Part shown: positions 8,601 through 63,693 of the stretch, in pieces
Position numbering within the stretch: position 1 is the first letter of the stretch
Layout: each line of letters opens with the position of its first letter
Source: Malus domestica
Lineage: Eukaryota > Streptophyta > Magnoliopsida > Rosales > Rosaceae
DNA: 64,000 nt
Direction: 5' to 3'
Assembly: GCF_042453785.1 (NCBI RefSeq)
Contig: NC_091661.1
Location: 26,589,501 to 26,653,500 of the forward strand
Made by a program: the position numbers and the translations under genes
The notes under the pieces: generated by a model
What the model was told of the DNA's origin: nothing
What the model saw: only the letters and a program-made list of their open reading frames with translations
Database searches by the model: none

Positions 8601-8604
8601 ATGT

Positions 8605-9343
8605 TGTTACATCCCACATCGTTCAAGGGAGTGAATCCTCTAAGCCTTATATGTATATTCTCATCTCTACCTAGCACAAGGCCTTTTGGAAGCTCACTGG
8701 CTTCGGGTTCCATTGGAACTCTGAAGTTAAATGAGTTCGCGTGAGAGCAATCCCATGATGGGTGATCCACTGGGAATTTTGCGTGTGAGTTCCCAGAAAC
8801 AAAACCGTGAGGGTGTGGTCGGGACCCAAAGCGAACAATATCATGCTACAACAGAGTCGAGCCCAGGATGTGGTGGGGGCTCGTGCCTGGATGTGATAAT
8901 TTGGTATCATAGCCAATCTCTGGCCGGATGTGTGCCAACGAAGACGTCGGGCCCTTAAGGGGGGTGGATTGTTACATCTCACATCGCCCTGGGGAGTGGA
9001 TCCTCTAAGCCTTATATGTATATTCTCATCTCTATCTAGCACGAGGTATTTTGGGAGTTCACTGGCTTCGGGTTCTATCGGAACTTCGAAGTTAAGTGAG
9101 TTCGCGCGAGAGCAATCCCATGATGGGTGACCCACTGGGAAGTTCTCGTTTGAGTTCCCAGAAACAAAACCGTAAGGGCGTGGTAGGGGGCCCAAAGTGG
9201 ACAATATCATGCTACAATGGAGTCGAGCCCGAGAAGTGGTGGGGGCTCGGGTTGGAATGTGACAATTTGGTATCAAAGCCAATCCTAGTCGGATATGTGC
9301 CAACGAGGACGTTGGGCCCTTAAGGGAGGTGGATTGTTATATC
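8605..9343 (+). mobile_element. Tandem Cassandra TRIM: LTR-internal-LTR-internal-LTR start
   Basis: Non-autonomous, non-coding Cassandra retrotransposon. LTR1 is 8605-8898, internal region 8899-8969, LTR2 8970-9264, second internal 9265-9334. A third LTR starts at 9335 and stops after about 9 bases, where NLR sequence begins. LTRs start TGTTACATC and end TGTGACA/TGTGATA. Each contains a 5S-rRNA-like module, including GAAGTTAAGTGAG (A-box region) and ATGGGTGACCCACTGGGAAG (C-box region). After each LTR is a primer-binding site (TTTGGTATCAAAGCC type), and before the next LTR a polypurine tract (AAGGGGGGTGGAT). The LTR-int-LTR-int-LTR order shows a tandem derivative, probably made by unequal recombination. 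No coding capacity is expected. Confidence 0.92.
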
Positions 9344-10453
9344 CTTTCAGAATTTTGGGAGCAGATGAAGAATGTGTCCTGGATTTCCTTAAGTGGGACT
9401 GCGATCGAGAAAATACCTTCATCAATTGGACATCTGGTTGGCCTCAGGGAATTGCTTGTAAGGAATTGCAAAAATCTCTTGAACCTTCCAAGGGCGATTT
9501 GTAATTTGAAGTCTCTTGAAGGGCTCTATGTGAGTCAATGTTCAAAGATTGACAAACTCACTAGAGACATGGATCGCTTAGAGGCGCTTCGCTGGGGACC
9601 CATTACACAGCCGCTTGTGAGTATGACAAATCTCAAAAGTCTAGTATTTAATACAAATTTTGACATAGCCGCTTGTGGATCGGATGGTAAAGCAAAGGAT
9701 AGGTGGGGCCTTCGCCGCTTATTTGGACTTGAAAAGAGTCGCCCTGATCCTCCTCCTTGTTGGGGTTTGGTGTTGTCTTCTCTAAATCGTTTATGCTCTT
9801 TGACATGGTTAGAGCTAGACAATTGTAATCTCCAGGAGGGGGATATCCCTGATGATATTGGTTGCTTGTCCTTATTGACAATATTGTGTCTCAGCAGAAA
9901 TAATTTCGTCAGTCTACCTGAAAGCATTAGACACCTTTCTAAGCTAGAGGTTCTTGAACTGGAGGGGTGTAAAAGCCTTCAAAAATTGCCACCTCTTCCA
10001 TCAAACAGAGGATTAATAGTAGAGTTGGACAATTGCACTTCCATACGAAGGTTTTCAGGTGCATTCAATTTGTATAATGCTCGTGTCACTTGCCTGAATT
10101 ACATTGCATTGGTTCCAGATGAAGACTTGATTAATAGGATTCTAAAATCTGTCATTCAGGTACTCTCCCTCCCTCCCTCCCTCCCTCCCTCTAAATAATT
10201 GATCTTTCTTCTGCTACAGGGATCGGATATTGTAATCCCTGGAAGTGAAATTCCAAAGTGGTTCAATAATCAAAGTGTGCGACATTCAATAAATGTGGAG
10301 CTTCCTCCACCATCATGTTCCAACTGGCTTGGGATTGCCTTCTGTGCTGTTTTTCTAGACCCAGACCCTATACAAAATGTGGAGCTTCCTTATTGCTATA
10401 GTTTCAGAATTCACCGTTCAGGGAAACTTGTTAGCCCTGATATACTTGGCCCA
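9344..10453 (+). pseudogene. Truncated TIR-NBS-LRR (TNL) resistance gene: LRR and C-terminal domain only
   Basis: Two exons with a clean phase-0 intron: exon up to 10159 (CAG|GTACTC) and exon from 10220 (GCTACAG|GGATCG). The first encodes leucine-rich repeats such as ISLSGTAIEKIPSSIGHLVG, CKNLLNLPRAICNLKSLEGL and LTILCLSRNNFVSLPESIRH, ending in the SLQKLPPLPSN segment typical of plant TNLs. The second encodes the start of the post-LRR (C-JID/PL) domain, SDIVIPGSEIPKWFNNQSV. The TIR, NB-ARC and first LRRs are missing. The 5' end is cut by a Cassandra LTR, and the 3' stop codon lies in a Cassandra-derived fragment. The intron has a (CCCT)n run near 10166-10192. Relatives sense pathogen effectors, but this copy is very unlikely to work. 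Confidence 0.9.
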
Positions 10454-19399: not shown

Positions 19400-22300
19400 T
19401 GAGTAACATACAGGTTGGATTCTTGATTCTGGTGCAACCGATCATATGACATATGATAAAAATATGTTTCAATATATGACAATGTCTCACAGGAAAAGCA
19501 TAGCAACTGCCAATGGGACTCTTGTACCCGTGTGTGGCACGGGCACTGTGCAACTCTCCCCATCTCTCCCGTTACATCGTTGCTTATTTGTTCCGTCTTT
19601 GTCCCATCATTTATTATCAATACCATAAGTTACTGAACAATTGGACTGTGTTGTTCTAATGTATCCGTCCTTTTGTCTACTTCAGGATATTCAGACCAAT
19701 GAGATAATTGGGCGTGACACTAAGAGAGAGGGATTGTACTATGTGGATGACGTCGTTCTTGGCATGGCTAATGCAGTTCGAGTATCACATGATAGTAATT
19801 TGCGAGAAGTATGGCTATTGCATCGTCGGTTAAGGCATGCATCTTTTGGATATTTACGGCATATGTTGCCTAGTCTATTTAGTAGAATAAATTATTCAAA
19901 CTTACATTGTGAAGTATGTATTCTTGCTAAAAGCCATCGTGCTTCGTTTCTTCCTAGTATGAATAAAAGGTCTTTGCCGTTTAAACTTGTGCATTCTGAT
20001 GTTTGGGGGCCTTATCCAGTTGTTGCTTATTCTGGCATTAAATGGTTTGTTACGTTTGTTGATGATTGTACTCGTATGACTTGGCTATATGTTTTGAAAA
20101 ATAAAAGTGATGTTGGTATGGTATTTCGTTCTTTCTCTCAGATGATTCAGACACAGTATTCGTCTGTGATTAAAGTACTTCGTTCGACAATGGTGGTGAG
20201 TACATTAATTTTGAGTTGTCGGAGTTTCTTCATGATCGAGGCATCCTCCATGAAACGACTTGTCCTCATACCCCGCAACAAAATGGGGTTGCTGAACGTA
20301 AAAACCGCCACCTCCTAAAAACAGCTCGTGCTCTTATGATTGGTGCCTCTGTTCCTAAGGTTTTGTGGCCTGAAGCTGTTACTTATGTTGTATATGTGAT
20401 TAACCGTATGCCATCTCGAGTTCTGGAATTTCAAACACCTCTTCAAGTCCTCACTTAACATGCTCTAGTGGTGTCGACTCATACTCTTGCTCCTCGAGTA
20501 TTTGGGTGTATGGCTTATGTGCATATTCAGAAAATTCATCGCACAAAGTTGGATCCGTGTGCCCTCCGGTGTGTGTTTGTGGGTTTCTCACCTCACCAAA
20601 AAGGCTATAAATGTTATCACCCTGAGACTCAACGTATGGATGTGACCTTTTTTGAATTAGAGTTTTTTTATCCTTCCGGGCATTTATCCTCAGATCACCA
20701 GGGGGAGAACGTTCTTGGTGATCTGGAGTGATTGGATCTAGGGGGAGACACCATTTCAAATAACACTAGCACCGAACCTGCTAGTGAATCGGTTTCTGCA
20801 GAAAATGTTGAAGTTCATGCCGAACATCAAGAAGTTCCTGTCGAGGAACCGAATACCCCTGCCGAGGAACCAAATACCCAGGAGACTGCCAAATTGACCT
20901 CTGAGCAGCCAAGACAGTGTTCTGCCGAGCCCAGTACACAGTGGCAACAGTCACATGCCGAGTCTGCTAATGTGCCCTCATCTCTCTCTAGCTCCAAAGT
21001 GTCGCCCAATGCATCTTCTTTGAATATAACCATGGATAATTATGTAATTAATCCAAGTGATAATGTAAATGCATATAGGTTGCCGCAAGACAAAATCGAG
21101 GTGTGCCACCTGATAGGTTTTCTCTTGAAGGGAAGGTGAAGTATCCAATAGCCAACTATGTCTCATGTAGTGTTCTTGCTCCGGAATGCCAAACCTTGGT
21201 GAACAATATGGAGTCTATAAAAATACCAACTCGAGTGGAGGAAGCTCTAAAGGATCCAAAGTGGGCAAAAGCAATGGATGAGGAAATGTTGGCGTTAAAA
21301 AAGAATAATACATGGTAGGTGACGTGTCTACCCAAGGGAAAAATGACAGTTGGATGCCGGTGGGTGTTTACAATTAAATTCAAAGCCGATGGATCGATAG
21401 ACAGGTACAAAGCAAGGTTGGTAGCTAAAGGATACACTCAAACATATGGTGTAGATTACCAAGAAACTTTCTCTCCGGTTGCCAAGATGAATACGAGGTA
21501 CGTGTTCTGATTTCTTCAGCTGCCAATCTAGACTGGCCGTTAAAACAGTTTGATGTGAAAAATGCTTTTCTCCATGGAAATTTGGAGGAAGAAGTATATA
21601 TGGATTTTCCTCCTGGGTATAGTGCTTCTGGGAATACCGGAGTATGTCGGTTGCATAAGTCACTCTATGGACTTAAGCAATCACTTCGTGCGTGGTTTGA
21701 CAGGTTTACCCAAGTTATGAAAAAGAATGGGTACTTCAGAGTTATTCTGATCACACATTGTTTGTTAAACGAAGACAAGATAAAGTGACAGCCCTAATCA
21801 TTTATGTAGATAACATGATTATCACTGGAGATGATCACGATGAGATTTTGAAGTTACAGAATAATCTGGCAGCCGAGTTCGAAATGAAAAACCTAGGAGA
21901 CTTGAAGTATTTCCTTGGAGTTGAAGTTGCTCACTCTTCAAAAGGTATTTTCTTGTCTCAATGTAAGTATGTTTTGGATTTATTAAAGGAATCTGGTATG
22001 CTGGGGTGTAAGCCGGTAGACACTCCTATTGTTGAAAAGCATCATCTGTGTTTGGATCCTAATCAGAAGTCAGTTGATAAAGGGAGATATCAAAGACTTG
22101 TAGGAAGACTAATTTATTTGGCTCATACACGTCCAGATATCGCCTATGCTGTAAGTGTAGTAAGTCAGTTTATGCATTCACCGAGCGTGGATCATATGGC
22201 TGCTGATATGCGTATCCTAGCATATTTGAAATCTGCACAAGGAAAATGAGTTCTGTATGGGAAGCACAGGCATTTGAAGATTGAGGGGTTCACAGATGCT

Positions 22301-27074: not shown

Positions 27075-29326
27075 ATGGCTGCCGAAGCGGTTCCGGGTAC
27101 ACCCGGCATAAAAGAAATGAGGTCCGAAGCCGGGACGGAGTTCCGTTTTAGCAATGGTTCGGGTCATGGACATAGAGCTCCCGGGTCCCCCTGTCCGCCG
27201 GGGATAAGGAGGGTGAGTTTAAGAGCGGAGATTGATACGTCCCCGCCTTTCGGGTCGGTCGAGGAGGCTGTTACCCGTTTTGGCGGGAAGGGGTCTTGGT
27301 TACCATTCTACAAGCTCGGAGAAAACTATGTAAGTCTAGCTTCTTATCTTTCTATATTTAAATTTTGATTACATTGGGAATTTTAGCTTGACAAATTTGT
27401 GTAACATATGTTAGAAAAATAAAACAATTTCGAAGATTTTGTGCTATGAGATGTAGAAATTCTCGGTGCAAGACGTTGTTCTTGATAAAGAACATATTTT
27501 GTATTTGATAATTTTGGTATTACACAATGTATGTTGATGCATTTTGTAGTGACATGTAGTTTATCGAAACTGTTGCGATACTATACTAATTGTTCATCAT
27601 TTAATGTTAGTAAAGAATGAACGTTTTTGTCCATACATCATGTCCAGAGAATAACTAATGAGATCTATATACGCATTTCTTCATGTCCTGCTGAATTGTG
27701 GTATTTCCACTTCTAGATCATGCTTGCTTCTTGAATTATTCAGTCGTTCAAAAGTCTTTCGGGTGTTCAGTTTGTTTTGATTCAGATTTGATATAACATT
27801 GTGATAAGCAGAATGGGGTTGAAGGGTTTGACCTAAAGAAAGTGGAGGAGCAGGCAGCAGAGCTGGAGAAGGATTTGATTGTGAAAGAACTGGAGACACT
27901 TGATGTCCTGGAGGAACTGTCAACAACGAAAAGGATCGTGGAAGAGCTAAAGCGCCAGCTGCAGAAAGAGGCGTTGAAATGCTTGACAGTCTTGCCCCCG
28001 GATTTCCATTTTGAAGAACACATTTCATCATCCCCTGCCATCAAAGAAATGGACAAGGAAAGTTATAGGACTCCGGGAAATAACCATGAACACATGATGG
28101 GAAATTCGAGTCCCTACCCGAATTCTCCTGATCTGATCTTGATGGAGTTGAAGCAAGCAAAATTGAACCTTGGTAAAACAATCAGCGATCTTGGGGTGAT
28201 TCAGTCTTCTGTCGAATGTTTAAATAAGAAGATGCGAAGCGAGAAAGTGTTACTTGAAAAGACCCAGGAGAGGCTGACTTTGCAGTTTGCAGGGGTGTCG
28301 TCGCTGGAGGAGGAGATGAAGAACATTGAAGTGAAGGAACAAATAGGTGTTGATGCAGAAACAGATACTAAGAGCGGCTTTGAGAATTCAGCATTTGTTT
28401 CAAGGGAGCATATGCAGTTTAGGAATACACCGGAAACTGTGAACTTTGAAGCATCCGGGGCAATGTCTAGGAATGAGCATGCCACGAACATTATGAAGAC
28501 TGCTGAAATGAGGTGGATTGCAGCTAAAAAGATGGAAGAAGCGGCAAGGGCAGCAGAGGCCGTTGCTCTTGCTGAAATCAAGGCTTTAACAAGTGGTGGG
28601 AGCTCGTCAGGATACGTCCTTCCAGAGCCCGAGAAAATGAGTTTTAGTTCTCAGATGAAATCTCCTCTAAACTCGAAAGCTCAAGAAGCTAAGGGCTTGT
28701 TCAAGAAGAAGCTAGTGGATGCCATGCGCCAAATTGATGAAGCTCATACTTCTAAACTGGCTATATTGAGGAAGCTGAAAGAAGCAACAGAAGAGGTTAA
28801 ACACAGTAAGCAATTCTTGGAGGAGGCTCTGAACAAAGTAGAACTTGCGAATCGAAAGCAACTCGCTGCTGAAGAGGCTCTTCAGAGTTGGGGAACCGAG
28901 CATGATCTGAAGGGACAAGCAGCAGCTTATAACATTCGCAACCTAAACAATTTCCAATCACCAGATTATAGCCTGAACTCTCCGATGAACGGGATGAACA
29001 AGTCAGCCCTACTAAATGATGGTCCGAAGCCAGTTTTAAGGTCAACATGTTCAATGCGAGATGTACTTAGCAGGAAGCAAGTTCTCCCCGAAGATGTTGT
29101 GGCAACAAAGGAAATGGATCGCAGCCAGACTGAAACGCACAGAGGAGCTTTGATTGAAATGCTTCATGCTCTAAGGAAGGATGTAACATTTCCTTCGAAA
29201 GTCGAGAAGGATGGAAATGATCAGAAGCCGGTTTTAGCACATAGGAAGAAATTCGGGTTCATCCAGATTTCCCTTCCCTTGTCGAAGCCGAGTAAGAAAA
29301 AGATGCAAACTTCGAATGCAGTGTGA
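27075..29326 (+). CDS. WEB-family (DUF827) coiled-coil protein
   Basis: Two exons: 27075-27329 (85 codons) and 27812-29326 (504 codons plus stop), joined phase 0 at AACTAT|GTAAGT and AGCAG|AATGGG, giving 589 residues. The N-terminus carries the family block DTSPPFGSVEEAVTRFGG..W.P (about residues 56-80). Most of exon 2 is predicted coiled coil, for example EEQAAELEKDLIVKELETLD and KLAILRKLKEATEEVKHSKQ. It includes the Ala-rich AAKKMEEAARAAEAVALAEI typical of WEB proteins. The tail is basic with Ser and Pro. WEB1 and PMI2 members support the chloroplast photorelocation response, but this subgroup (like At2g40480) has no established role. It lies between LBD15 and UROD, as in Arabidopsis. Confidence 0.92.
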
Positions 29327-31660: not shown

Positions 31661-32909
31661 GGGTAAATTACACAAAATTACTTCAATTATGGGTCAAACC
31701 ACAATCTCATACCTCATGTTTTAAAAGTTATAATGTCATACCTCATCTTACAAATTAGTTTCAATGTCAGACTTCCGTTAGTTTTTTGTTTACCAACCCA
31801 TCACCCTCACCTATTTTGACGCCGTGAAGGCGTTTGAACATCCATCATCAACCTCCTTCCCCTTTCCGTCCATCCCCCACCCCTTCACCAGAAAGGTGTT
31901 CAAACAAATGTGAAGGTAGAAGAACCTGGAGTTCGAATCAAAAGAGAGGAAATAATTGAGTTTCAATCACCACATCCACATACACTGTCGACCAGAAAAC
32001 CACCATCGCCAGCCGACATGTCACATCCCGGGTCCATCACATCCTGGACTTGCCTCCGCCGTAGCACGATATTGTCCGTCTTGGGCCTCGATCACGCCCT
32101 CACGGTTTTGTTTATGGGAATTCACACAAAAATTTCCCAGTGGATCACCCATCCTGGAATTACTCTCAAGCGATCTCGCTTTACTTCGGAGTTCCTATGG
32201 AACCCGAAGCCAGTGAGTACCCAAAATGCCTCGTGCTATAGGAGATGGACATGAATATATAAGGCATATATGATCCACTCCCTTGAACGATGTGGGATCT
32301 AACACGACCCTACCAGATCTCGAAATCCTTATCTTCGTTGAGTTCTTGATATACTCCGACAACGTCACGAAGAGAAGTAATTTTGAATCTAAGATGAACT
32401 CTAATTTGATTGAGTTGTAAATTTAAATTTATATCCTTTGATTCATTATTTGAAGATTTTCTATATTTTAATGGTTTTCACGTGGTGGGTCAAGTGGAGT
32501 TTGTTGTAAAATGTTAGTTTGCTTTGTTTTTCTGAATTTTTTGGGTGGTGGGTTGGGGAAGATTTTTATTGTTGATCTGCGTTTAAGTTTGCAGGTCACG
32601 TTCATGTTGATTTGGGTGGAGGGAGGGGACGGGAGGAAGGGAAAAGAGGACGTGGGTCCCACACTCTTTTACAAAAATATTTAAATGATTTTGTTTTTAA
32701 ATTTAATTATTTTTTTAATCCAATTGGATTAGGTAGCGATGTTAGCTTCAAACCATCTCAGCATTTAACAGAAAAATTGACATAAAAACTAACGGAAGTT
32801 TGACATTAAAATAAATTTGTAAGATGAGATATAACATTATAACTTTTAAAATATAAGATATAAGATTATAATTCGACTCATAATTAAAGTAGTTTTTGTG
32901 TAAATTACC
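31661..32909. mobile_element. Mutator-like element (MULE) with long inverted repeats
   Basis: The ends are inverted repeats of roughly 130-150 bp: left GGGTAAATTACACAAAATTA, right ending (inverted) GGTAATTTACACAAAAACTA. Both continue through AAAAGTTATAATGT and CTTCCGTTAGTTTTT. Direct repeats TTTTTTTAAA and TTTCTTTAAA flank it (one mismatch over 10 bp), in line with the 8-10 bp duplications of MULEs. The interior encodes no transposase and holds a Cassandra solo LTR inserted later. Other internal sequence of about 500 bp is unidentified. Confidence 0.82.
32019..32304 (-). mobile_element. Cassandra solo LTR nested in the MULE
   Basis: Minus-strand LTR: on the plus strand it begins TGTCACATCCCGGG and ends GTGGGATCTAACA. 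The 5S-like module is present in inverse (TGGATCACCCATCCTGG, CTTTACTTCGGAGTTCC). Flanking pentamers CGACA/CGACC differ by one base. Confidence 0.9.
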
Positions 32910-40259: not shown

Positions 40260-43023
40260 ATGGCTTGCATTCACAGCTACGGCTCCATAGCTTCCATCTC
40301 TCTTCCCACCTCCCCTTCCTTCTCGCCAAGATCCAGATGCGCCTACAAGCCTCGCTTTCTCTGCGCCCTCGGAGGTATTTACAAAACGATGTCGTTGCTT
40401 AATTTGGAGCTTTCGACTATTGGATTCTGTGGGAAATGGTCTGATTGGTGTTGGGTGTTTTCTAATTTGGGGTCTTTATGTAATATACGGTGTCGTTTCT
40501 GTGCTTAATATGAACTTTGAAGCTTACCCCAACTGGTTTATGTGGGATATGGTGTAATTGATGTTGGGTTTGCTCCAATTTGGGATCTTTGTTTAATACT
40601 TAATCGTGTACTTAATATGCTTGCTAATCAAGTTTGATAGTGCCCACGTGCTTGTTTTGAAGCTACTCCAGCTGGGTTTTGTGGGATATTGTCAAATTGA
40701 TGTTGAGTGTGTTCAAATTTGCGTTCTTTATTTAGCACAAATTCTGCTTAATTATTTGCTAATAAGTTTGATAATGCCCAATGTCTAATTGTGTGGTTCA
40801 TTTCAGGGAGTGTGGCAGAACCCCAAGTTGCCTCCGTTGCCGAGCCGCTTTTGCTCAATGCAGTTCGCGGGGACGATGTTGAGAGACCCCCAGTTTGGCT
40901 CATGAGGCAAGCAGGGAGGTACATGAAGGCAGGTTTATGCATATATCGATTACCATCTCATTCGCTCTGAATTAGTTCTGGTTTAGTGTAAATTGGCCTA
41001 CTAACTTATTTAAGCATTTTGATATGACAGAGTTACCAAACTCTCTGCGAGAGGTACCCTTCGTTTCGAGAAAGATCCGAAAATGTTGACCTCATTGTCG
41101 AAATTTCGCTACAGCCCTGGAAGGTCTTCAAGCCTGATGGTGTAAGATGTCACTCTGGGATTCAGTGTTGGTGGTTTTCCAGTTTAGCCACTTACCTGTT
41201 ATAATCTTGTTATCCCTTCCGTTGGGTTGCTCGTTTCCTTTTTCTCACAAGTCTCCCCATGTGTTGTGACAGGTCATTTTGTTCTCAGATATTCTAACGC
41301 CTCTTTCCGGGATGAATATACCATTTGACATTGTAAAAGGTAAGGGTCCTGTAATATTCGATCCTCTGTATACTGCTGATGATGTTGATCAAGTAAGAGA
41401 GTTTGTTCCACAAGAATCAGTTCCATATGTTGGGGAAGCGTTGACAATCTTGCGAAAAGAGGTCTAACATTTCTCTACTTATTCTGTTTCAACTTTGAAT
41501 ATCTTTTTCATTTCATCCTAAACTTGGAATAGTTGCATGTATAATTCGCTAAAAGTAGTACCTTGCCGCTATGGTGCCAATAATATTGCTATAAAAGGAA
41601 GCAAAAAGAGGGGAATATATCACATGAAATTTGGAAGCTAAGACCTGAATTACAAAAGTGTCAAGGGATTCATTCGAGTCCTTACGATATTATGTTAGTC
41701 TGCGGGGACCTCAGTAATATGACACTGCATACCATGGTTATGATTCCTAAATGCTATCAGCCACCTTTTGAAGCTTAATAGAGTTTGATATTGGATGTGA
41801 TTTGAGAATGATTTCTCTGCTTGAGCCTGCATCATAACCTTTGGTATCCTCACTGATACGGTGATATCTTTACTTTTCCAGGTAGATAATAAGGCAGCAG
41901 TGCTAGGTTTTGTTGGGGCTCCTTTTACCCTAGCATCGTATGTAGTGGAAGGTGGTTCATCAAAGCATTTCTCAAAGATAAAGAGATTAGCCTTCTCTCA
42001 ACCAAAGGTAACTCTAGTGCTGCCTATATCTGGTGTACGCAACTTTATGGGGTGTTAGTCGTAAATGCAACATTAAAAATGTGTTTAGTGGTCTTTCATA
42101 GTGGTACAACATTGACTGGGGCTTATTGTATTGAGGGTTATCAATGGTTGCAGCATTTTCTGTTTGGGTTGCTTTTTGTTGTGTGACTGGAGGTCTGAAA
42201 TTAGATGCAAGTTGTTCCCACATTTATTTTTCAATCTTGTCTTCTAACTTGTTAATATCATGGTTACATACATTGAGAGTGCCAATAAGTATGGTCCTTT
42301 AGCAATTGGTTGCTAGTTCCTAGGCTATTCCCACCTTCGTTTCAAACCCATTTTGCGACTTATCATTAATATATTTGATGTTTTCTGGGAGTGTTACATT
42401 GTTAACAAAGGTGTGAATATCCTTCTTATCATTCTTGTTTGGTTTTTAACGTGGGACGCTTCCTGCTGGTATATGCCAACTTTGCTGACCTTTGGTTCTT
42501 TCCTCAGGTCCTCCATGCATTACTTCAGAAATTTACAACTTCAATGACAAAGTATATTCGATACCAAGCTGATAATGGAGCTCAAGCCGTTCAGATCTTT
42601 GACTCATGGGCCACAGAACTCAGCCCTGTGGATTTTGAGGAATTCAGTCTGCCATACTTGAAGCAAATCGTGGATGCTGTGAAAGAGACCCATCCAGTTC
42701 TCCCCTTAATCCTTTACGCAAGTGGATCCGGGGGTTTGCTTGAGAGGCTAGCTTTGACCGGTGTTGATGTAGTTAGCTTGGACTGGACAGTTGATATGGC
42801 GGAAGGTAGAAGGCGACTGGGACCAAATATAGCAGTTCAAGGTAATGTGGATCCCGGTGTTCTTTTTGGTTCAAAAGAATTCATCACCAGCAGAATAAAC
42901 GATACGGTGAGGAAAGCCGGTAGAGGAAAACATATTTTGAATCTTGGCCACGGCATTGTAGTAGGTACACCTGAGGAGAATGTTGCCCATTTCTTTGAGG
43001 TTGCTAAAGATATCAGATATTGA
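40260..43023 (+). CDS. HEME2: Uroporphyrinogen III decarboxylase, plastid type
   Basis: EC 4.1.1.37: removes four acetate carboxyls of uroporphyrinogen III to give coproporphyrinogen III, for chlorophyll and haem synthesis in the plastid stroma. Six exons: 40260-40374, 40807-40928, 41031-41141, 41273-41461, 41882-42007 and 42508-43023, together 392 residues. The first ~38 residues are Ser-rich and basic (transit peptide). Conserved blocks are [13 protein letters not shown] (substrate-binding Arg, about 72-75), [16 protein letters not shown] (the active-site Asp region), [69 protein letters not shown] and HILNLGHGI. Intron 2 appears to start with GC (ATGAAG|GCAGGT): only that junction keeps the frame into [10 protein letters not shown]. 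The sequence looks fully functional. Confidence 0.96.
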
Positions 43024-45235: not shown

Positions 45236-46552
45236 ATGGAAAATAAGGGCAAGATTTTGATGCAAAAATATGAGATTGGGAGAATGTTAGGGCAAGGAAA
45301 CTTTGCTAAAGTTTATCATGCAAGAAACCTCCAAACTGGCCATAGCGTGGCGATTAAGGTAATTAACAAAGAAAAGGTTCTGAAAGTTGGACTAATTGAT
45401 CAAACAAAAAGAGAGATTTCTGTTATGAGACTCGTTAAACACCCGAATATAGTGCAACTTTTTGAGGTCATGGCTACGAAAACCAAGATTTATTTTGTTT
45501 TAGAGTATGTCAAAGGCGGCGAGCTTTTCCACAAGGTGTCGAAAGGGAGGCTCAAGGAGGAAATGGCAAGGAAGTACTTTCAGCAGCTGATCAGCGCTGT
45601 GGATTTCTGCCACAGCAGAGGTGTTTACCACCGCGATTTGAAGCCTGAGAACTTGCTGCTGGACGAAAATGGAACGCTGAAGGTGTCGGATTTTGGGTTG
45701 AGTGCGCTTGCGGAATCCAACAGGCAAGATGGTCTTTTGCACACAACTTGTGGAACTCCTGCTTATGTAGCTCCTGAAGTTGTGGGGAGAAAAGCATATG
45801 ATGGGGCAAAAGCTGACATTTGGTCTTGTGGTGTGATTTTGTACGTGCTTTTGGCCGGTTATCTGCCGTTTCATGGAACAAATCTGATACAAATGTATAG
45901 GAAAATTGGAAGAGCAGATTACGAATGCCCTAAGTGGTTTTCGAATGAAGCGCGACGGCTACTCTCTAAAATCCTCAACCCTAACCCTAGTAAAAGGATT
46001 TTCATTTCAAACATAATGCAAAATCCCTGGTTTAGCAAGGGGTTCAACTCCAAACCAATTGCAACTATAACAGAAGTCGGAAGCCAGGGTTTTTCGGACG
46101 TTGATCAGATTACTGAGCTGGCAAAGCAGCAAGAGTTGGCTAGACCTAGACCTACATATTTAAATGCTTTTGATATCATCTCTCTTTCTGGTGGATTTGA
46201 TTTGTCTGGCTTGTTTATGGGACAGGAACAAGATGTGAAAAAAGAAGTGAAGTTCACATCTGTGCAATCTGCCTCATCAATTGTATCCAAGCTGGAGAAC
46301 ATTGCTCATCATTTGAAGTTGAAAGTCAAGAAAGATGGAGGGTTACTGAAATTCGAGAAATCTGATAACGGAAGGAAGGGTGCATTGGCAATAGAGGCTG
46401 AGATTTTTGAGTTCACTTCATCTTTTCATTTAGTTCGTCGTACCCAGTGCACAAGGCTCCCGCTTTACGCAGGGTCTGGGAGAGGTGAATGTCGGCTAGC
46501 CTTACCCCCATTTATGGAGAGGCTGCTCCCAATCATCTTTTCATTTAGTTGA
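45236..46552 (+). CDS. CBL-interacting protein kinase (CIPK), C-terminally disrupted by a SINE
   Basis: Ser/Thr kinase of the SnRK3 group that is activated by calcium-bound CBL sensors, of the intron-poor clade (CIPK5/25-like at a guess). Kinase features are complete: Gly-loop [11 protein letters not shown]41, HRDLKPEN (132-139), DFG (152-154), and an activation loop with [12 protein letters not shown] (APE at 179-181). The CBL-binding motif [19 protein letters not shown] lies at about 309-327. The PPI/regulatory region then starts, but a 97-bp SINE plus an 18-bp duplication interrupt it at 46436. The frame runs into SINE-derived codons and stops at 46550-46552 (438 residues). The displaced remainder ([19 protein letters not shown] ... 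HMHYSS) is intact at 46551-46700. The shortened kinase may still bind CBLs. Splicing of the insert is possible but unproven. Confidence 0.9.
46436..46532 (-). mobile_element. 5'-truncated SINE (Au-like) inserted in the CIPK coding sequence
   Basis: 97 bp flanked by exact 18-bp direct repeats TCATCTTTTCATTTAGTT (46418-46435 and 46533-46550), the mark of LINE-type target-primed insertion. Read on the minus strand it holds GACCCTGCGTAAAGCGGGAG and CCTTGTGCACTGGGTACG, which I recognise as the 3' part of Au-type SINEs. Pol III boxes are missing, so it is 5'-truncated. Confidence 0.85.
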
Positions 46553-46700
46553 GATGAAGAAATCCAAAGGCGACACATTGGAATTTAGGAAGGTGTTGGA
46601 AGATGATATAAGACCAGCTCTCAAGGATGTTGTGTGGACATGGCACGGTGAGCAGAAACAAGAACAAGAACAAAAACAGCATATGCATTATTCTTCCTAA

Positions 46701-47370
46701 GTCTGCACATCTCATACTTGAATGATCTGAAGCTTTTCTAATTTAAACTATTGTTTGATGAATTTATTCTTGTAATTATTATAAAGTTATTGTTATATCA
46801 AGGCTCAATTGGTTTTGTAAGCTTGAAGTTACATGTGATTGCATATTATGAGTGAGGTTTTCCAATCTTTTGTTCCATTTGACCCCCAAGTTTCGTTGGG
46901 CTTAGACTTTTTGGGCTCATACCATAAATTGGACTTATGATGTTCGTTACAATATCCATTTTAGTAAGGGTAGATATTTGAACCAGAAAAAGATGAAACA
47001 GGGTCGAACCAAACCAGAAAAAATCAATGAGTAAACTTAATATAAGTCCAATTTTGTGAATCAGAATTGAGTTCAGTCCACTTTGTTATGGTCCACTCAC
47101 TAATTATCCATATTCAAACCGAATCAAAATCGAACAAAATTAATTATTTTATTCATTTCAATTTTATATCAAGGTGAAGTATACTTAAACTAAACAGACC
47201 ATGCATACCACTACATTCTATGCATTCATCTTCTGTCAATAAAGTGCATGTATTTCATTGAGAAGCCAGTTTTTCACGCAAACCCTAATGGTATGCATTA
47301 GATATATATGCGAGTCGACTGGCCTTCACAGACGCACCAATACAGCCGGTCGGCAAACCACTCACATCTA
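46701..47370. other. CIPK 3' flank and intergenic DNA
   Basis: No gene or transposon recognised before the MITE that begins at 47371. Confidence 0.4.
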
Positions 47371-47580: not shown

Positions 47581-48447
47581 ATGTGCATTATTAGGGTCTA
47601 CATAAGAGAATTGTCACTCAAAGGCGTCACTAGTAATAATAAAGGAAGATTAATTTTTTTGTACATTACCTTTATTAATTGACACATATTAAATTTAATT
47701 ATGACAATAAAATTAAAAAAGATTAAATTTATTAACACGTATTAATCAATAATACAGGCCAAATAGAAATCATGCATAAAAAGAATGCATAAAATTAACT
47801 CTAATAAAGGTGCCTAGCTTTTATCATCATCATTTGGAGCAGCTGGCATATGACCCCATGTTAGCATATTCCAATATTGATTGCTGCATGGCACCCAAAT
47901 GGAGCAAGACGCATGGAAAAAGAAATGCACAGATTAATATTGTGTGGAAGCAAATTAATCAAAAAGACTTGTAGATCTCACAACTCAAATTCCGAATCCG
48001 AATCCGAATCGTTTTGTTTAGTATTCAAATTAATCAAAAAGGTTAGGGTTGGTCGGCTCGGGGATTACAGGGGGAAAGATTATCAACAGTTAGCAGTTCT
48101 AGAATTTAAGTTCGAATCACGCTATGTTAAAATAAACTTTATCGTTTCTGAAAAGATGATGCACATTTAACAACATTATTATTATTATTATTATTATGTT
48201 CATGCTCTTAAGGTTTTTCGCTTTAACGAATGTAAGTTAAAGTAGTTGATAGAGCACTGCATTTATTCCCTTGAACTTAAGTTCGAATCATCCTTCATCA
48301 AAATTTAATAAAAAATTTCCCATTACATTAAAGGGACTAATTACAATTAGATTTAAAGGGTAATGTTGAGTGAGCCCACATGATTTCCATCATAAAAAAT
48401 ACCTTACAAAGTCATAGAATAAAAAACAAAAATTGGTTCTTCACTGT
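47581..48447. other. Intergenic DNA with tRNA-derived SINE-like fragments and an (ATT)n run
   Basis: GTTCGAATC box-B-like motifs at about 48111 and 48281 are each preceded by weak box-A-like sequence (for example 'gtagttgatagagcac', 48241-48256), suggesting two decayed SINE fragments. 48175-48197 is an (ATT)n microsatellite. No gene. Confidence 0.45.
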
Positions 48448-48741
48448 TGTCACATCCCGGCCCAGGTTCCCATCACATCCCGGGCTCGACTTCACCATAA
48501 CACGTTATTGTCCGCTTTGGGCTCCGATCACGATCTCACGGTTTTGTTTCTAAGAACTCACACGAGAACTTCTCAGTGGGTTACCCATCATGGGATTGCT
48601 CTCGCGCGAACTAGCTTAACTTCGGAATTCCGATGGAACACGAAGCCAGTGAGCTCCCAAAAGGCCTCATGCTAGGAAGAGATGTGAATATACATATAAG
48701 GCTTACAAGATCCACTCCTTTGGATGATGTGAGATGTTACA
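48448..48741 (-). mobile_element. Cassandra solo LTR
   Basis: Complete 294-bp LTR in minus orientation (plus strand TGTCACATCCCGG ... GAGATGTTACA) with perfect 5-bp target duplications ACTGT (48443-48447 and 48742-48746). The 5S-like module is intact in inverse (GTGGGTTACCCATCATGGG, GCTTAACTTCGGAATTCC). A solo LTR formed by LTR-LTR recombination. Confidence 0.95.
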
Positions 48742-48746
48742 ACTGT

Positions 48747-49758: not shown

Positions 49759-50085
49759 TATGAGACATCTTACTTAGTTCTAAGCCTCAAGCCCTTACCC
49801 TAGAGTTAACGAGTGGATTAGAAAGAACCGAAAAATGAATTAGGATTATAATAATCAACAATCTGTTTGTTAAATTAACTTTGATAAAATGAAAAATGGT
49901 TTGAAGTATAAATGAATTAGTAGATACGATCCAGTATTGTTTAAAAAGAAAAGTTTAGATCTTTTGGATGGTCATGGTTGGACGCAAATGGGATTTTGAG
50001 ATACAAGATTGTGATATTTGAAGCAACTTGCACTTCAACATCAAATCACCTTTCACTAAACAAAGCAAAGCCGAAAGATCTTTGT
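49759..50085. other. Intergenic spacer
   Basis: Nothing recognisable. Confidence 0.4.
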
Positions 50086-52639
50086 TGACACATCCCGACC
50101 CGAAATGTCCATTAGGACTCCGAATCGAGCTGTGCAGGTCGACACCTGGAAGGTGACGAAACCATAAAGTATAGTGATGTGGAAAATATGAATAAATTTA
50201 AACTTAAGAGTGCCTAAAGAAGAGAGTGCACTATGAGCGGGAATGAACCCATTTCACACGCGACGTCAGAGCATAAGTAAAGTATAGTAGTGTGGGTAAA
50301 GATCATAACCGTAGAGGTAGCCACCTATTCTAAGATTCGTCAAGGATCCTCGTCGATGCGAACTTTCAATAGCTAAAACTTGGAGGGGCGCAAAACAAAA
50401 AACGTGAGTGGGCAAAAACAAAGCTTTTGAAAACACATTTCTTTTTCTAAACATAATAACCCCTCACCGTAAAACCCGTATAATTTCCCAGTAAATCAGA
50501 ATACATACGTAGATAGAAATTATGCTCGAGAGCAATGAAAACCAAGTATATGCCATGTCAAGTATCTCAGTAATATATATGTAAGCTAGGTGAAATGATA
50601 TGTTAGCCGAAGTCACATAACGTGACATGTACAGCTAGATCTATAGCTCATAAACCAATTTCCTGCACACGAGTAGGAACCACCTAATGTGGTCTGTACG
50701 ACAGGGCTAGGTGTATATAAGTACGCTCAAGTGCTACGATCACGTGAAGACTGTGCGAATAATCGCGGGTCACCTACGAGTCGGAACCACCTATTGTGGT
50801 CTGTACGATAGGGATGTGCACCAAACTTGGATCCAAGGTGAGTGTACGGTGCGGGAGGTGAACATCACGTGAATGACTGTGCCCTGACCACGGGCAGGAG
50901 CACTACCACCGGGGTGCAGGATAATGAGCTCTAAATGCATCTACGTATAACCATACACAATGCAACCACCATTATCATAATATACTCACCTGAAACTTAC
51001 TTGGGCCTCTGCAACATCATTCAGTAGTATGCAAAACCATTCTAATGCAAATACTAAAATATAATGCATCCTTGACATGGCATTTAAATCGTAAATTCAT
51101 TTAAAAACAATTTATGGGAATCGTAAAGCATATATACATACATATAGAAAACAAAAGCCCACTCACCTGGATTCTGTGCTACAACTCCCTAGTACACACA
51201 TCGAGGCGTCACGAAGGATTGGCGTCTAGAATAATTATCAAATCATGTCTCATAAATCTTATCGATAGAATACATCATTTGTATAAAACGCATCCCTACG
51301 TAATTCGATCCGAAAAATTCGCATCACGGATTACTAATCCAATACTTCCAAAGTTTCACATTATGCTTCTAGAACAACATCCTAAAGTTTCAAAACGATC
51401 CAACGGTCAAGTCTTCGCCAATTGCCAAAACCAAATGGCGGTCGACGTTTTATTTTATGAACTTACAAATCCAATTTTGGAAGATCCGTACGTCGGATTC
51501 CCAATCTGTAAGTTCCAACATTCTTCAAATATTACATACAATAACGTATTAAAGTTTGGTGACGATCCAACGGCCGGATCGTCGATGCATATATTGACCT
51601 ATTAACCTATCGTAGAGAATTTAGATTCCAATGATCAACCTACTTCATACGATTACCAGAATTGAACTCAAGGCATCTAATTTAGCCTAAGAATAGTATC
51701 GATGGCCCCCTAGCCACGCGCCGCCGTGGGTGGCGGTCAGCCGCCCCGACTCACCGGAAATATCTAACTATTTCCAAAAATTACCAAAATTTACAGGAAT
51801 GAAGATCTCAATGAGTAGAGTAACTTTCATAGATGTGACCAAGGCCAATTAGGCCGGGAAGAGCTCCAATTTTGCTAAAACCCGTCGGAAACCCTACAGA
51901 GGGTGTTTCTTGATTCGACTCCAAACAAGCTCCGACGCTTAAACCATTGCTTGGGCTTTGTTCCTGGGGTTGATGGGAGTCTATTGATGGTGGTAATTAG
52001 AGGAAAATATTTCAGGATTTGAGGAATTTACACTCGAACCCGCCGTACACACCATGCGGGTTTTCACATTTTCAAGACCAAATTCTCTCAAATTTGGGGT
52101 GTAATTGGTAGAGGGGAGGTTATGGAAGAGGTTGCAAGTGATGGATGGGTGTGTTTCATTGGAAAAATGGTGGAAATTTGCTGGAATTACCCCGGCCGAA
52201 CGGGTTAGGCGTGTGCGGGTGCACGGGTCTAGAAAGATGAGGGTTTTAGGTTCCTTCATTTCCCCTCCTTGCTCTCTTTCTGATTGGGTCGTGACCTACC
52301 CCTCCTCTCCTTTCTCTTCTTTGCTTTCCATCTTGGCCACACATGTGGCATCACCACATTTTTGCTCCAAAAATCTGGAGCCTTCCACAAAATAATTAAT
52401 TTACCATTTTGTCTTCGACTTTAAACATTAATAACTTCTTCATTATAGCTCCAAAGTCGATTCTGCTTAAGCTCACGCGTCCGTAGCAACGAGTACTACG
52501 AGTATACACCAAGAAAATAGATTTTACATGTCATGAATAGGTGGTCAACAAAAGTCAACGTATTTGTCTCGAAGGGCATTTTCGTAAATTCACTTATTAA
52601 AATTTTAAAAACTATAATTTTTAGGGATGGGTTGTTACA
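50086..52639 (-). mobile_element. Long Gypsy-type LTR, minus orientation (left arm of inverted pair)
   Basis: On the minus strand it begins TGTAACAACCCATCCCTAAA (at 52639) and ends TTTCGGGTCGGGATGTGTCA (at 50086), about 2.55 kb. Very long LTRs with these ends are typical of Tekay/del-type chromoviral Gypsy elements in plants. No polypurine tract precedes it and no matching target duplication was seen, so it is either a solo LTR or one end of a rearranged element. Short frames such as 51114-51605 are non-coding LTR sequence. Confidence 0.8.
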
Positions 52640-54022: not shown

Positions 54023-54321
54023 TGTAACAACCCATCCCTAAAAATTATAGTTTTTAAAATTTTAATAAGTGAATTTACGAAAATGTCCTTTGAGGCAAAT
54101 ACGTTGACTTTTGTTGACCACCTATTCGTGACACGTAAAATCTATTTTCTTGGTGTAAACTCATAGTACTTGTCGCTACGGACGCGTGGGCGTAACCGAT
54201 ATCGAATTTGGAGCTATAACGAAGAAGTTATTAACGTTTAAAGTCGATGACAAAATGGTAAATTAATTATTTTTTGTACTAGGGAGTTGTAGCGCGGAAT
54301 CCAAGTGAGTGGGCTTTTGTT

Positions 54322-54359
<38 letters not shown>

Positions 54360-55394
54360 TTTACGATTCCCATAAAACTGTTTTTAAATGAATTTACGAT
54401 TTAAATGTCATGTCAATGATGCATTATATTTTAGTATTTGCATTAGAATAGTTTTGCATACTACTGAATGATGCTACGGAGGCCCAGGTAAGCTTCAGGT
54501 GAGTATATTATGATAATGGTGGTTGCATTGTGTATGGTTATACGTAGATGTATTTAGAGTTCATTATCCTGCACCCCAGTAGTGCTCCCGTCCATGGCCA
54601 AGGCACAGTCCTTCACGTGATGTTCACCTCCTGCACCACACGCTCACCTTAGATCTAAGTTTGGTGCACAGCCCTGTCGTACAGACCACAATAGGTGGTT
54701 TCAACTCGTAGGTGACCCGCGATTATTCGCACAGTCTTCACGTGATCGTAGCACTTGAGCGTACTTATATACACCCAGCCCTGTCGTACAGACCACATTA
54801 GGTGGTTCCTACTCGTGTGCAGGAAATTGGTTTATGAGCTATAAATTCAGCCGTATAGGTCACGTTAGATGACTCCGGCTAACATATCATTTTACATTGA
54901 GTCATTTCACCTCGCTTGCATATATATTACTGAGATACTCGACATGGCATATACTTGATTTTCACTGCTCTCGAGCATAATTTCTATATACGTACGTATT
55001 GTTATTTTCTGGAAAATTATACAGGTTTTACGGTGAGGGGTTATTATGTTTAGAAAAAGAAATGCGTTTTCAAAAGCTTTGTCTTTGCCCACTCATATTT
55101 TCTGTTTTGCGCCCCTTCAGTTTTAGCTACTGAAAGTTCGTATCGACGAGGATCATTGACGAATCTCAGAATAGGTAGCTACTATACTTTACCTATACTT
55201 TACCTATACTCTGACGTCGCGTGTGAAATGGGTTCATTCCCACTCACAACGCACTCTCGTCTTTAGGCACTCTTAAGTTTAAATTTATTCATATTTTCTA
55301 CATCACTATACTTTATGGCTTCGTCACCTTCGAGGTGTCGACCAACACAACTCAATTCGAAGTCCTAGCAGACATTTCGGGTCGGGGTGTGACA
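54023..55394 (+). mobile_element. Gypsy-type LTR, plus orientation (right arm), internally deleted
   Basis: Begins TGTAACAACCCATCCCTAAA and ends TTTCGGGTCGGGGTGTGACA; 1372 bp. It aligns inverted to the left arm but lacks about 1.2 kb that the left arm carries between roughly 51195 and 52390. An AT run at 54328-54358 replaces a shorter one. It is followed at once by TTTAGTATCAGAACC, a Met-tRNA-type primer-binding site belonging to Cassandra-like internal sequence. Confidence 0.85.
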
Positions 55395-55759
55395 ATTTAG
55401 TATCAGAACCAATCCTTGGCCGGAAGTGTGCCGACGAAAACGTCGGACCCCTAAAGGGGGTGGATTGTTACATCCCACATCGCACATGGAAGTGGATCCT
55501 GTAAGCCTTATATGTATATACCCATCTCTACCTAGCACGAGGTCTTTTGGGAACTCACTGGCTTCGGGTTTCATCGGAACTCCAAAGTTAAGCGAGATTG
55601 CAGCGAGAGCATTCCCAGGATGGGTGACCCACTGGGAAGTTCTCGTGTGAATTCCCAGAAACAAAATCGTGAGGGCATGGTTGCGGTCCAAATTAAACAA
55701 TATCGTGTTACAGTGGAGTCGAGCTCAAGATATGATGGGATCCGGACCGGAATGTGACA
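55395..55759 (+). mobile_element. Cassandra internal region plus 3' LTR, fused to the Gypsy LTR
   Basis: 55395-55465 is the Cassandra internal region (primer-binding site, then GTGTGCCGACGAAAACGTCG and the tract AAAGGGGGTGGAT). 55466-55759 is a complete 294-bp LTR (TGTTACATCCCACATCG ... GGAATGTGACA) with the 5S-like module. The 5' LTR is not Cassandra but the Gypsy-type LTR to its left. Confidence 0.9.
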
Positions 55760-57062: not shown

Positions 57063-57690
57063 TGTCACATCCCAGCCTGGGTCCACTACATCCCGAGCCC
57101 GCTCCACCACCGTAGTACAATATTGTTCGCTTTGAGCCCCGACTACGCCCTCACGGTTTTGTTTCTGGGAACTCACACGAGAACTTCCCAGTCAATCACC
57201 CATCATGGGATTGCTCTCGCACGCTACTCGCTTAACTTCAGAGTTCCAATGGAACCCGAAGCCAGTGAGCTCCCAAAAGGCCTCATGCTAGGTAGGGATG
57301 AGAATATACATATAAGGATCACTCCTCTGGGTGATGTGGGATCTTACAATCCAACTCCCTTAGGGGCCCGACGTCCTCGTCGGCACACCACAGCCAGGGT
57401 TAGGTGTCACATCCCGTTCCAGGTCCACCACATCCCGGGCCCGCTCCACCACCGTAGCACTATATTGTCCGCTTTGGGCCTCGATTACGCCCTCACGGTT
57501 TTGTTTCTGGGAACTCAGATGAGAACTTCCCAGTGGGTCACCCATCATGAAATTGCTCTCGCGCGCTACTCGCTTAACTTCGGAGTTGCTATGGAACCCG
57601 AAGCCAGTGAGCTCTTAAAATACCTCGTACTAGGTAGGGATAGAAATATACATATAAATATCACTTCCCTGGACGATGTGAGATCTTACA
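57063..57690 (-). mobile_element. Complete Cassandra TRIM lacking its primer-binding site
   Basis: Two 286-bp LTRs in minus orientation (57405-57690 is 5', 57063-57348 is 3') around a 56-bp internal part. Flanks AATGT and AAAGT (one mismatch) look like target duplications. Both LTRs hold the 5S-like module. In the internal region the 5' LTR is followed directly by CCTAACCCTGGC, where other copies have ATTTGGTATCAGAGCCAAT, so the primer-binding site has been deleted. Confidence 0.92.
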
Positions 57691-58092
57691 AAAGTATTCT
57701 ACCGTCTCATGATATATCGAGACTGCATGAAAGGAAGATTATTCTACCATCAATGCCTTATGACCGTGCTGCGAGACATCGAAAATTTGTTCAGAATACA
57801 CCTAACTCGAACAACTTTATGCCCGATTCATTTACCATACGTGCATGCTTTTTCTGTGCTGCTGGGTAGCTAGGACCAAAAACCATTGAGAGTCTTCTTT
57901 TCTTGCCATATCCTGTCGGATTTTGTATGGAAGTAGATGCAGCATTTAATACTGAAAACCACTGTGCCCTGACCAACAAGGACACTGCTGCTCTCGTGAA
58001 GTTGTCACCCAATAATTGAAGACCTAGCTTATCTTTACACTTGATGACGATGAATATCTGCTTATCTTTACACTTGATGACGATGAATATCT
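57691..58092. other. Unidentified stretch with open frames and a 33-bp tandem duplication
   Basis: Frames are open on both strands (plus to 57869, minus 57791-58012) with unusually little low-complexity sequence, possibly a decayed gene fragment, but no domain was recognised. 58027-58059 is exactly repeated at 58060-58092 (unit starts GCTTATCTTTACACTTGATG). Confidence 0.35.
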
Positions 58093-61851: not shown

Positions 61852-61962
61852 ACAACCCCACATCACCATTTCCTTGTATAAGCCAACCTAAACAACACCC
61901 ACAGTAGCAGAGACTTCCAAGATCTCAATCTCTCCAAACACAACAAAACAACACAAAGTTCG

Positions 61963-63693
61963 ATGGACGTGGAGGCTCACGAGCCGCGGCCGCCGCCATC
62001 AGCCCTAACGCGGCTCAACAAGTACGTTGCCAAAACCCGAGTCGGCAAGCACTTCAAACTCGCCGAGCGCAACTCCACTTTCACCACGGAGCTCCGCGCC
62101 GGCACCGCCACGTTTCTCACCATGGCCTACATCCTCGCAGTCAACGCCTCCATTCTTTCCGACTCTGGCGCCACCTGCTCCGTCTCGGACTGCATCCCTC
62201 TCTGCTCAGACTCGACACAGTCTCTCCAAAATTGCACCGGATCGGTCATCCAACCTGACTCGACGTGCAAATTTGACCCGGTCAACCCTGGCTACTCCAC
62301 CTGCATAGAAAAAGTTCGAAAAGATCTCATCGTCGCCACCGTTGCCTCCTCCCTCATCGGCTGCTTAATCATGGGCACCTTCGCGAATCTCCCGCTGGCT
62401 TTAGCTCCGGGTATGGGCACCAACGCCTATTTCGCATACACCGTTGTCGGGTTTCACGGATCGGGTAATGTCTCTTACAAGAGCGCATTGGCCGCTGTGT
62501 TTATCGAAGGCTTGATTTTCCTCTTCATCTCCGCAATCGGGTTGCGCGCCAAGCTCGCAAAATTGATCCCGAAACCGGTTCGGATCAGCTCCTCCGCTGG
62601 TATTGGACTTTTCCTGGCGTTTATCGGGTTGCAGAACAACGAGGGAATCGGGTTAATCGGGTACAGTTCCTCGACGTTGGTGACGATCGGAGCCTGCCCC
62701 GCTTCCTCGCGGGCATCTTTGGCTCCCGTCATAACGGCTGCTAACGGCACCGTTATTTTGATCCAGGGCGCTACCGTTTCGGGGGATATTATGTGCCTGC
62801 GGGACCGAATGGAAAGCGCGACGTTTTGGCTTGGCGTGGTCGGCTTCGTAATTATTGCGTATTGTTTGGTTAAAAATGTGAAGGGGGCGATGATTTACGG
62901 GATTATTTTCGTGACGGCCGTTTCATGGTTCCGTAACACCAAAGTAACTGCGTTTCCCAATACGGATGCGGGAGATTCGGCGTATGAATACTTTAAAAAG
63001 GTGGTTGATATACATACGATCGAGAGTACGGCCGGGGCACTGAGCTTCAAGGATATTGGAAAGGGTTATTTTTGGGAGGCACTAATTACGTTTTTATACG
63101 TAGACATACTCGACACCACCGGTACTTTGTACTCGATGGCCCGATTCGCCGGATTCACCGACGACAACGGCAGTTTCGAGGGCCAATATTTTGCTTTCAT
63201 GTCGGATGCTTCGTCCATTGTGGTGGGTTCCTTGCTGGGCACGTCACCCGTGACGGCATTTATTGAGTCATCTACAGGTATACGGGAGGGCGGACGTACA
63301 GGACTAACGGCGTTGACGGTGGCGGGATATTTCTTTTTGGCGTTTTTCTTCACGCCGTTATTGGCGTCGATACCGGCTTGGGCAGTGGGGCCGCCCCTGA
63401 TTTTGGTTGGGGTGCTGATGATGAAATCAGTGGTGGAGATTGAGTGGGAAGACATGAGGCAGGCGATCCCGGCCTTTGTGACGTTGATTTTGATGCCGTT
63501 GACTTACTCCATAGCGTATGGGCTGATTGGTGGGATTGGAACATTCATAGTGTTGCACGTAGGGGATTGGGGCCTAGAACTTTTGGTCAAATTAGGGATT
63601 GTAAAGGGGGGAGGAGGTGGTGGGGTGATCAATGGGGCACATGATCATCAAACTAGAGAAGAAGATGCAAAAGTGGCTGAAATTGGAGTTTAA
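61963..63693 (+). CDS. AZG1: Adenine/guanine permease of the AZG family (AZG1-like)
   Basis: Intronless, 576 residues, a multi-span transporter of the AzgA/NAT-NCS2-like superfamily. Plant AZG1 takes up adenine and guanine with protons and has been linked to cytokinin movement at the plasma membrane or ER. Signatures: TMAYILAVN (about 53-61), [15 protein letters not shown] (about 145-159), a [13 protein letters not shown] segment at about 381, and [24 protein letters not shown] from 427, the substrate-site region of AzgA proteins. A long extracytosolic Cys-rich loop (about 65-115, six Cys) follows the first span. The end is hydrophilic with a Gly run. The gene is strikingly GC-rich compared with its surroundings. 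Start chosen at the first ATG ([11 protein letters not shown]), after a leader with AACAAAACAACAC. Confidence 0.96.

Follow-up and report, generated by a model that had tools for sequence, protein, structure and literature searches.

A SINE copy has most probably been inserted recently, by retroposition, into the coding sequence of the apple kinase gene MdCIPK8, where it would be retained in the mRNA and truncate the kinase; we put the probability of this reading at about 0.82. The gene lies in a stretch of 64,000 nucleotides, referred to here as the window, on contig 1 at 26.59-26.65 Mb, and all genome counts given below cover the whole assembly (651 Mb, 19 contigs). The features that define the insertion, with the means by which each was located, are as follows.

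45236..46552, + strand: present open reading frame, 438 aa (ORF translation, Pfam)
46418..46435, + strand: first copy of the target site duplication (TSD), 18 bp, native coding sequence (direct-repeat search)
46436..46532, - strand: SINE body, 97 bp, antisense to the gene and matching nt 66-162 of L003, a full copy of 162 nt (genome matches, comparison with L003)
46533..46550, + strand: second copy of the TSD, 18 bp, bearing a T-rich, acceptor-like AG end at 46548 (direct-repeat search)
46550..46552, + strand: premature TGA in the shifted frame (translation)
46551..46700, + strand: abandoned native C-terminal coding sequence, 49 codons and the native stop, still open (joined-flank translation, paralogue comparison)

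The 97-bp insert (46436-46532) lies between two copies of TCATCTTTTCATTTAGTT, at 46418-46435 and 46533-46550, which are identical at 18 of 18 positions and form the sole direct-repeat family found in 46300-46800. Since the duplication is perfect and many sister copies are dispersed in the genome, arrival by target-primed retroposition is supported, and the initial annotation, which had described a 97-bp SINE with perfect 18-bp target duplications, was right on this point. Together, the 97 inserted and 18 duplicated bases make 115 extra bases, which shift the frame by one, so that TGA at 46550-46552 stops translation. The open reading frame 45236-46552 (+) is predicted to encode 438 aa, comprising 400 native CIPK residues and 38 that come from the insert and the shifted second TSD. 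In this product both the Pkinase domain PF00069 (residues 12-266, 3.1e-78) and the CBL-binding NAF domain PF03822 (residues 306-366, 1.9e-21) are complete according to Pfam, and a complete C-terminal regulatory domain is missing; the DNA for it, 46551-46697, is kept out of frame. Joining the flanks in silico gave 49 more codons up to the native stop at 46698-46700 and a protein of 449 aa. The frame shift, through which the last part of the CIPK regulatory domain is replaced, and the undamaged state of the coding sequence downstream, had both been claimed before and hold. By descent, judged from sequence, the gene is a CIPK (SnRK3) and its predicted product a truncated CIPK; the gene is otherwise intact and, apart from the question of the insert, intronless.

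When genome matches to the insert were scored, 39 of 40 (the best 40 of 204 candidates, the MdCIPK8 insert included) were 100% identical over 96-97 nt. The 16-mer at the inner end of the insert has 1899 exact occurrences in the genome, as against 0 for its reversed control; the T-tailed end pattern was found at 1816 places and the tail-less one at 130. The dispersed copies are flanked by target duplications, though some have no recognisable one. A full copy, L003 (sense), is 162 nt long, with a tRNA-like fold at its 5' end and the B box GGTTCGAGAC at nt 56-65. The insert starts at nt 66 of L003, directly after this box, and thus lacks the tRNA-like head with the Pol III box B, while its own end, ...GTACGACG, has no T-run. 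From these features the insert is classified as a truncated copy of a tRNA-derived SINE and not a complete member, and it is unlikely to be an active source because the Pol III promoter head is missing. The family is putatively Au. Au SINEs have been described as bearing a short T-tail, (T)2-5 (PMC3747384). No tRNA was called by ARAGORN in any of the nine SINE loci scanned, Rfam (at the gathering threshold) and ARAGORN found nothing over the whole window, and a comparison of the insert with a plasmid collection gave chance matches only (4 records, E about 10).

The gene was placed in the published record through the qPCR primers of MdCIPK8, both of which match exactly and once each in the window, flanking the insert.

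46203..46221, + strand: published MdCIPK8 forward qPCR primer, exact match (primer search)
46645..46663, - strand: published MdCIPK8 reverse qPCR primer, exact match; amplicon of 461 bp with the insert and 346 bp without it (primer search)

These matches, together with the agreement of paralogues in mass and pI with published rows, identify the gene as apple MdCIPK8 (MDP0000165729). The predicted mass and pI of three paralogues, L043, L051 and L052, equal the rows of MdCIPK32, 16 and 12, respectively, within 1 Da and 0.04 pI units, and L050 (440 aa, pI 8.60, 49,555.6 Da) equals that of MdCIPK28 (PMC6073193). In this way 4 of the 11 paralogues were matched to published rows; the other seven match none by mass among the 12 of the table's 34 rows with which they were compared. 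MdCIPK12, published at chr1:26.49 Mb, was considered as the gene of the window and rejected, as its row (447, 8.66, 50,322.2) corresponds to L052 (contig 15, 446 aa, pI 8.66, 50,321.6 Da). The proteins equal to MdCIPK16 (L051) and MdCIPK12 (L052) are encoded on contigs 17 and 15, whereas both genes are assigned to chromosome 1 in PMC6073193; the discrepancy is probably a misplacement in the older assembly or in the table.

According to the same article, qRT-PCR detected expression of each of the 34 MdCIPK genes in root, leaf, flower and fruit, and MdCIPK8 is among those down-regulated under fungal and salt treatment. Its table lists MdCIPK8 with 0 introns, 497 aa, 48,611 Da and pI 9.52 (PMC6073193). 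The end coordinate given there is one digit short and implies a span of 1460-1469 nt; with the insert, the distance from ATG to native stop is 1465 nt and falls within this range, whereas the 1350 nt of an insert-free gene do not. This is a hint, though no proof, that the older apple reference carries the insertion too. The published 497 aa and 48,611 Da conflict with each other, and the mass fits none of the proteins of 438 aa (49,361 Da), 449 aa (50,962 Da) and 450 aa (51,075 Da); it evidently derives from some other gene model. Splice models ending at the native stop were tried as its source and none came within 43 Da; a GC-AG model, 46462-46655, was off by no more than 1.4 Da, but it abandons the native frame and its pI is 9.61 against 9.52. 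The main text of PMC6073193 contains no word with transpos-, truncat-, insertion or splic-, and 'sine' occurs in it only inside a species name.

A search of the assembly with the gene returned one full match and no empty allele. The match with the next-best score covers most of the query at 71% identity, and 74-85% is reached only over parts, so MdCIPK8 has no recent duplicate in the assembly. All 11 paralogues compared, the stronger of the assembly matches, run straight through the insertion site with neither insert nor intron (HLVEVKKSSGDTLE in the nearest). Over the conserved segment that follows the insert, MdCIPK8 agrees with its four nearest paralogues at 22/30, 22/30, 22/29 and 22/29 residues, as compared with 0.73-0.78 in the kinase domain; for the seven more distant paralogues the values are 0.30-0.67 and 0.68-0.76, respectively. 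Since identity to the four nearest paralogues, on which this conclusion rests, is at the level of the kinase domain, no decay of the abandoned segment is seen, and the insertion is judged recent relative to the decay of abandoned sequence. There are zero differences between the two TSD copies and zero between the insert and its sister inserts, which means only that the event is not old and yields no rate-based date. We also considered whether constraint had been relaxed before the insertion. Upstream of the insert (45236-46435), 149 residues do not vary among the 11 paralogues, and MdCIPK8 differs from them at 7. Ten of the paralogues have lower counts of their own, 0-3, but each of the ten has a close partner (90-94% identical) in the comparison set, which depresses its count; L051, which has no such partner, as is also true of MdCIPK8, departs at 14, so the idea was not upheld.

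From these results the following course of events may be proposed: a headless copy of an apple tRNA-type SINE was reverse-transcribed into the intronless MdCIPK8 coding sequence via target-primed retroposition, and the insert is most likely kept in the mRNA. Translation would then read the antisense SINE, add 38 foreign residues and stop at 46550-46552, so that the kinase and NAF/CBL-binding parts stay, whereas the last part of the C-terminal domain, residues 401-449 with a conserved portion at about 401-431, would be missing. This stretch has its homologous counterpart in the C-terminal domain of the solved kinases CIPK23 (4czt) and CIPK24 (2ehb, 4d28): phmmer against the PDB found the abandoned segment similar to CIPK23 with E 5.7e-4, and Pfam recognised no domain in the 49 abandoned residues. 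Because the NAF motif stays, CBL binding and autoinhibition may be partly kept. The most likely effect would be reduced stability or regulation, that is, a probably unstable or poorly regulated kinase and a loss- or reduction-of-function allele. Strong nonsense-mediated decay of the truncated mRNA is not expected, since the gene is intronless and the new stop lies only 148 nt before the native one.

Damage to the regulatory domain beside complete Pkinase and NAF domains might not weaken the kinase but make it hyperactive or redirect it. We consider this improbable, given that the autoinhibitory NAF motif is kept and that, by homology with 2ehb and 4d28, loss of the C-terminal fold would more likely destabilise the protein. 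That the insert is an artefact of assembly or haplotype, either absent from the real plant sequence or carried by one allele beside an intact partner, seems very unlikely: the locus is present as one copy in the assembly, but the TSD structure is that of a textbook insertion, and about 115 extra bases are likewise required to account for the published span of an older apple gene model. A rescue of the reading frame by splicing, for which two hypothetical introns come into question, bears more directly on the truncation.

46437..46548, + strand: hypothetical intron proposed in the initial annotation, 112 nt, with a very poor donor, TTC|GTCGTA (splice-pair scan, donor scoring)
46485..46548, + strand: second hypothetical intron, 64 nt, in frame and adding 17 aa, with donor GAG|GTGAAT (splice-pair scan, donor scoring)

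It had been suggested that removal of 46437-46548 would restore the frame and give a full-length kinase with one extra Leu. The arithmetic is correct (112 nt, 450 aa, HLV-L-EMKK), and the acceptor at 46548, TCTTTTCATTTAG, is T-rich with AG and looks good by eye. The donor TTC|GTCGTA, however, scores below every other of the 73 GTs from the ATG to the native stop and reaches only the 0.1 percentile among all GTs in the window, under a model with approximate weights based on dicot donor frequencies. The segment it would remove is 46% A+T, and dicot introns usually need a higher content. Restoration of the frame is no sign of selection, because 7 of the 17 GT-AG pairs of at least 60 nt inside the insert and its duplications restore the open native frame. 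In a wider search (donors 46350-46559, acceptors before 46700, introns of at least 61 nt), 102 GT/GC-AG pairs restore the native end; frame restoration is thus expected by chance, and we rejected it as a sign of intronisation. Exact excision from TSD to TSD (115 nt, with AG at 46547-46548) was rejected as well, since it needs a GT at 46434, where the sequence reads TT. An intron born with the donor at 46437 is not supported, and we regard it as highly improbable. Where the initial annotation left the choice between a recent insertion and rescue by splicing, the 18/18 TSD and the agreement of the post-insert segment with the four nearest paralogues favour the former, and the rank of its donor as the worst GT speaks against the latter.

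A fair donor (46485) and acceptor (46548) are nevertheless present in frame, which speaks against retention of the insert. GAG|GTGAAT, in the antisense SINE, is at the 98.1 percentile of window GTs and second-best between the ATG and the native stop, and its joining to 46548 would remove 64 nt, add 17 residues and leave the frame open to the native stop, giving a complete native C-terminus after a 17-residue insertion. At 64 nt this intron would be shorter than usual in plants, its A+T content is 53%, and the donor model is approximate; we hold such a partial rescue to be improbable. Taken over both donors, it is improbable that MdCIPK8 transcripts are partly spliced from 46485 (less likely 46437) to 46548 with rescue of the C-terminus, which would amount to a SINE-born intron at its birth. 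Splicing of the insert is therefore judged unlikely, and retention with truncation is the reading that we prefer.

The headless form of the insert is recurrent in the genome (survey loci L001-L040, L054-L143 and L144-L203, all from this genome). Nine of 60 copies on contig 1, chosen by the 16-mer alone, end at the breakpoint base of the insert, and in 5 of the 9 a duplication lies directly there. Among tail-less copies, 28 of 60 (the first 60 of the 130 listed places, with the MdCIPK8 insert among them) end between reference positions 96 and 101, with 20 ending at 97; L115-L117, which belong to the 28, look like one multiplied site. For T-tailed copies the figure is 7 of 40, 4 of them at 97, in a sample of 40 from 1816 (38 on contig 2, the other 2 on contig 1). 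The two samples differ with Fisher p = 0.003, the multiplied site L115-L117 being counted uncorrected. Because the breakpoint immediately follows the B box, where the T-arm ends on its 3' side, the obvious candidates for the recurrent cut would be frequent stalling of reverse transcription at the tRNA-like fold of the head, or else an RNA processed to a headless form. The 97-nt form may reflect a recurrent stop of this kind, or it may be a short subfamily in its own right. At L008 (about 1502-1710; contig 10, ~1.157 Mb) a piece resembling 5S rRNA (Rfam 34.9 bits, E 3.7e-4, under the 38-bit gathering score) is fused to the SINE body at the same breakpoint base, and the locus bears a 14-bp duplication; this is apparently a template switch during retroposition, as expected of a jump at a breakpoint stop.

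One SINE insertion with the same flanks was found three times on contig 1, ~41 kb apart (L038, L039 and L040, at 14.355, 14.396 and 14.438 Mb). The flank identity covers ~125 bases, and the longer loci are not identical without gaps; the arrangement suggests a segmental duplication. Elsewhere in the window, repeats of roughly 290-375 bp, ~76-87% alike, both tandem and single, were seen among the matches listed at 8604-9343, 32019-32304, 48447-48742, 55465-55759 and 57063-57691. An inverted pair of ~1.1 kb, 88% identical (50085-51196 and 54275-55395), possibly represents transposon arms. The coding pieces recognised there by Pfam are, in listed order:

9263-10195: LRR-rich gene
19629-22246: LTR retrotransposon fragments (GAG-pre-integrase, RVT_2)
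27797-29323: WEMBL protein
42406-43020: uroporphyrinogen decarboxylase piece
61882-63690: permease

Both outcomes discussed here have known counterparts, namely SINE insertions that shorten coding sequences (wheat Au, PMC5787218) and introns derived from transposable elements (PMC9860276), and the apple case is an ordinary one unless transcripts show splicing. As reported by Keidar et al. (PMC5787218), wheat Au is likewise a short SINE found in genes, with copies also in mature transcripts, and the transcripts containing it mostly have shorter predicted coding sequences. There, however, the element is 181 bp long and lies in introns in 35 of the 40 genes examined, whereas the apple copy, for which the name Au is putative, is a headless 97-bp piece inside a single coding exon. 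As in introners (Gozashti et al., PMC9860276), the notion is that splice sites are supplied by a mobile element, which is then excised as an intron; in the text of that survey none is reported in land plants, and the apple intron is hypothetical, with a very poor proposed donor. The study of Niu et al. (PMC6073193) concerns the same gene, which it found expressed in four organs by qRT-PCR, and its primers match exactly and flank the insert. In the open-licence literature we found no report of a SINE insertion in MdCIPK8.

The locus would be a clean natural truncation allele of an apple calcium-signalling (stress-signalling) kinase, and earlier measurements of this gene under stress treated it as intact. 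The published primer pair separates the two outcomes by product size. If the insert is retained, the published expression of MdCIPK8 would be that of an mRNA for a truncated kinase; if it is spliced, the locus would be a rare case in which the birth of an intron can be observed in a land plant.
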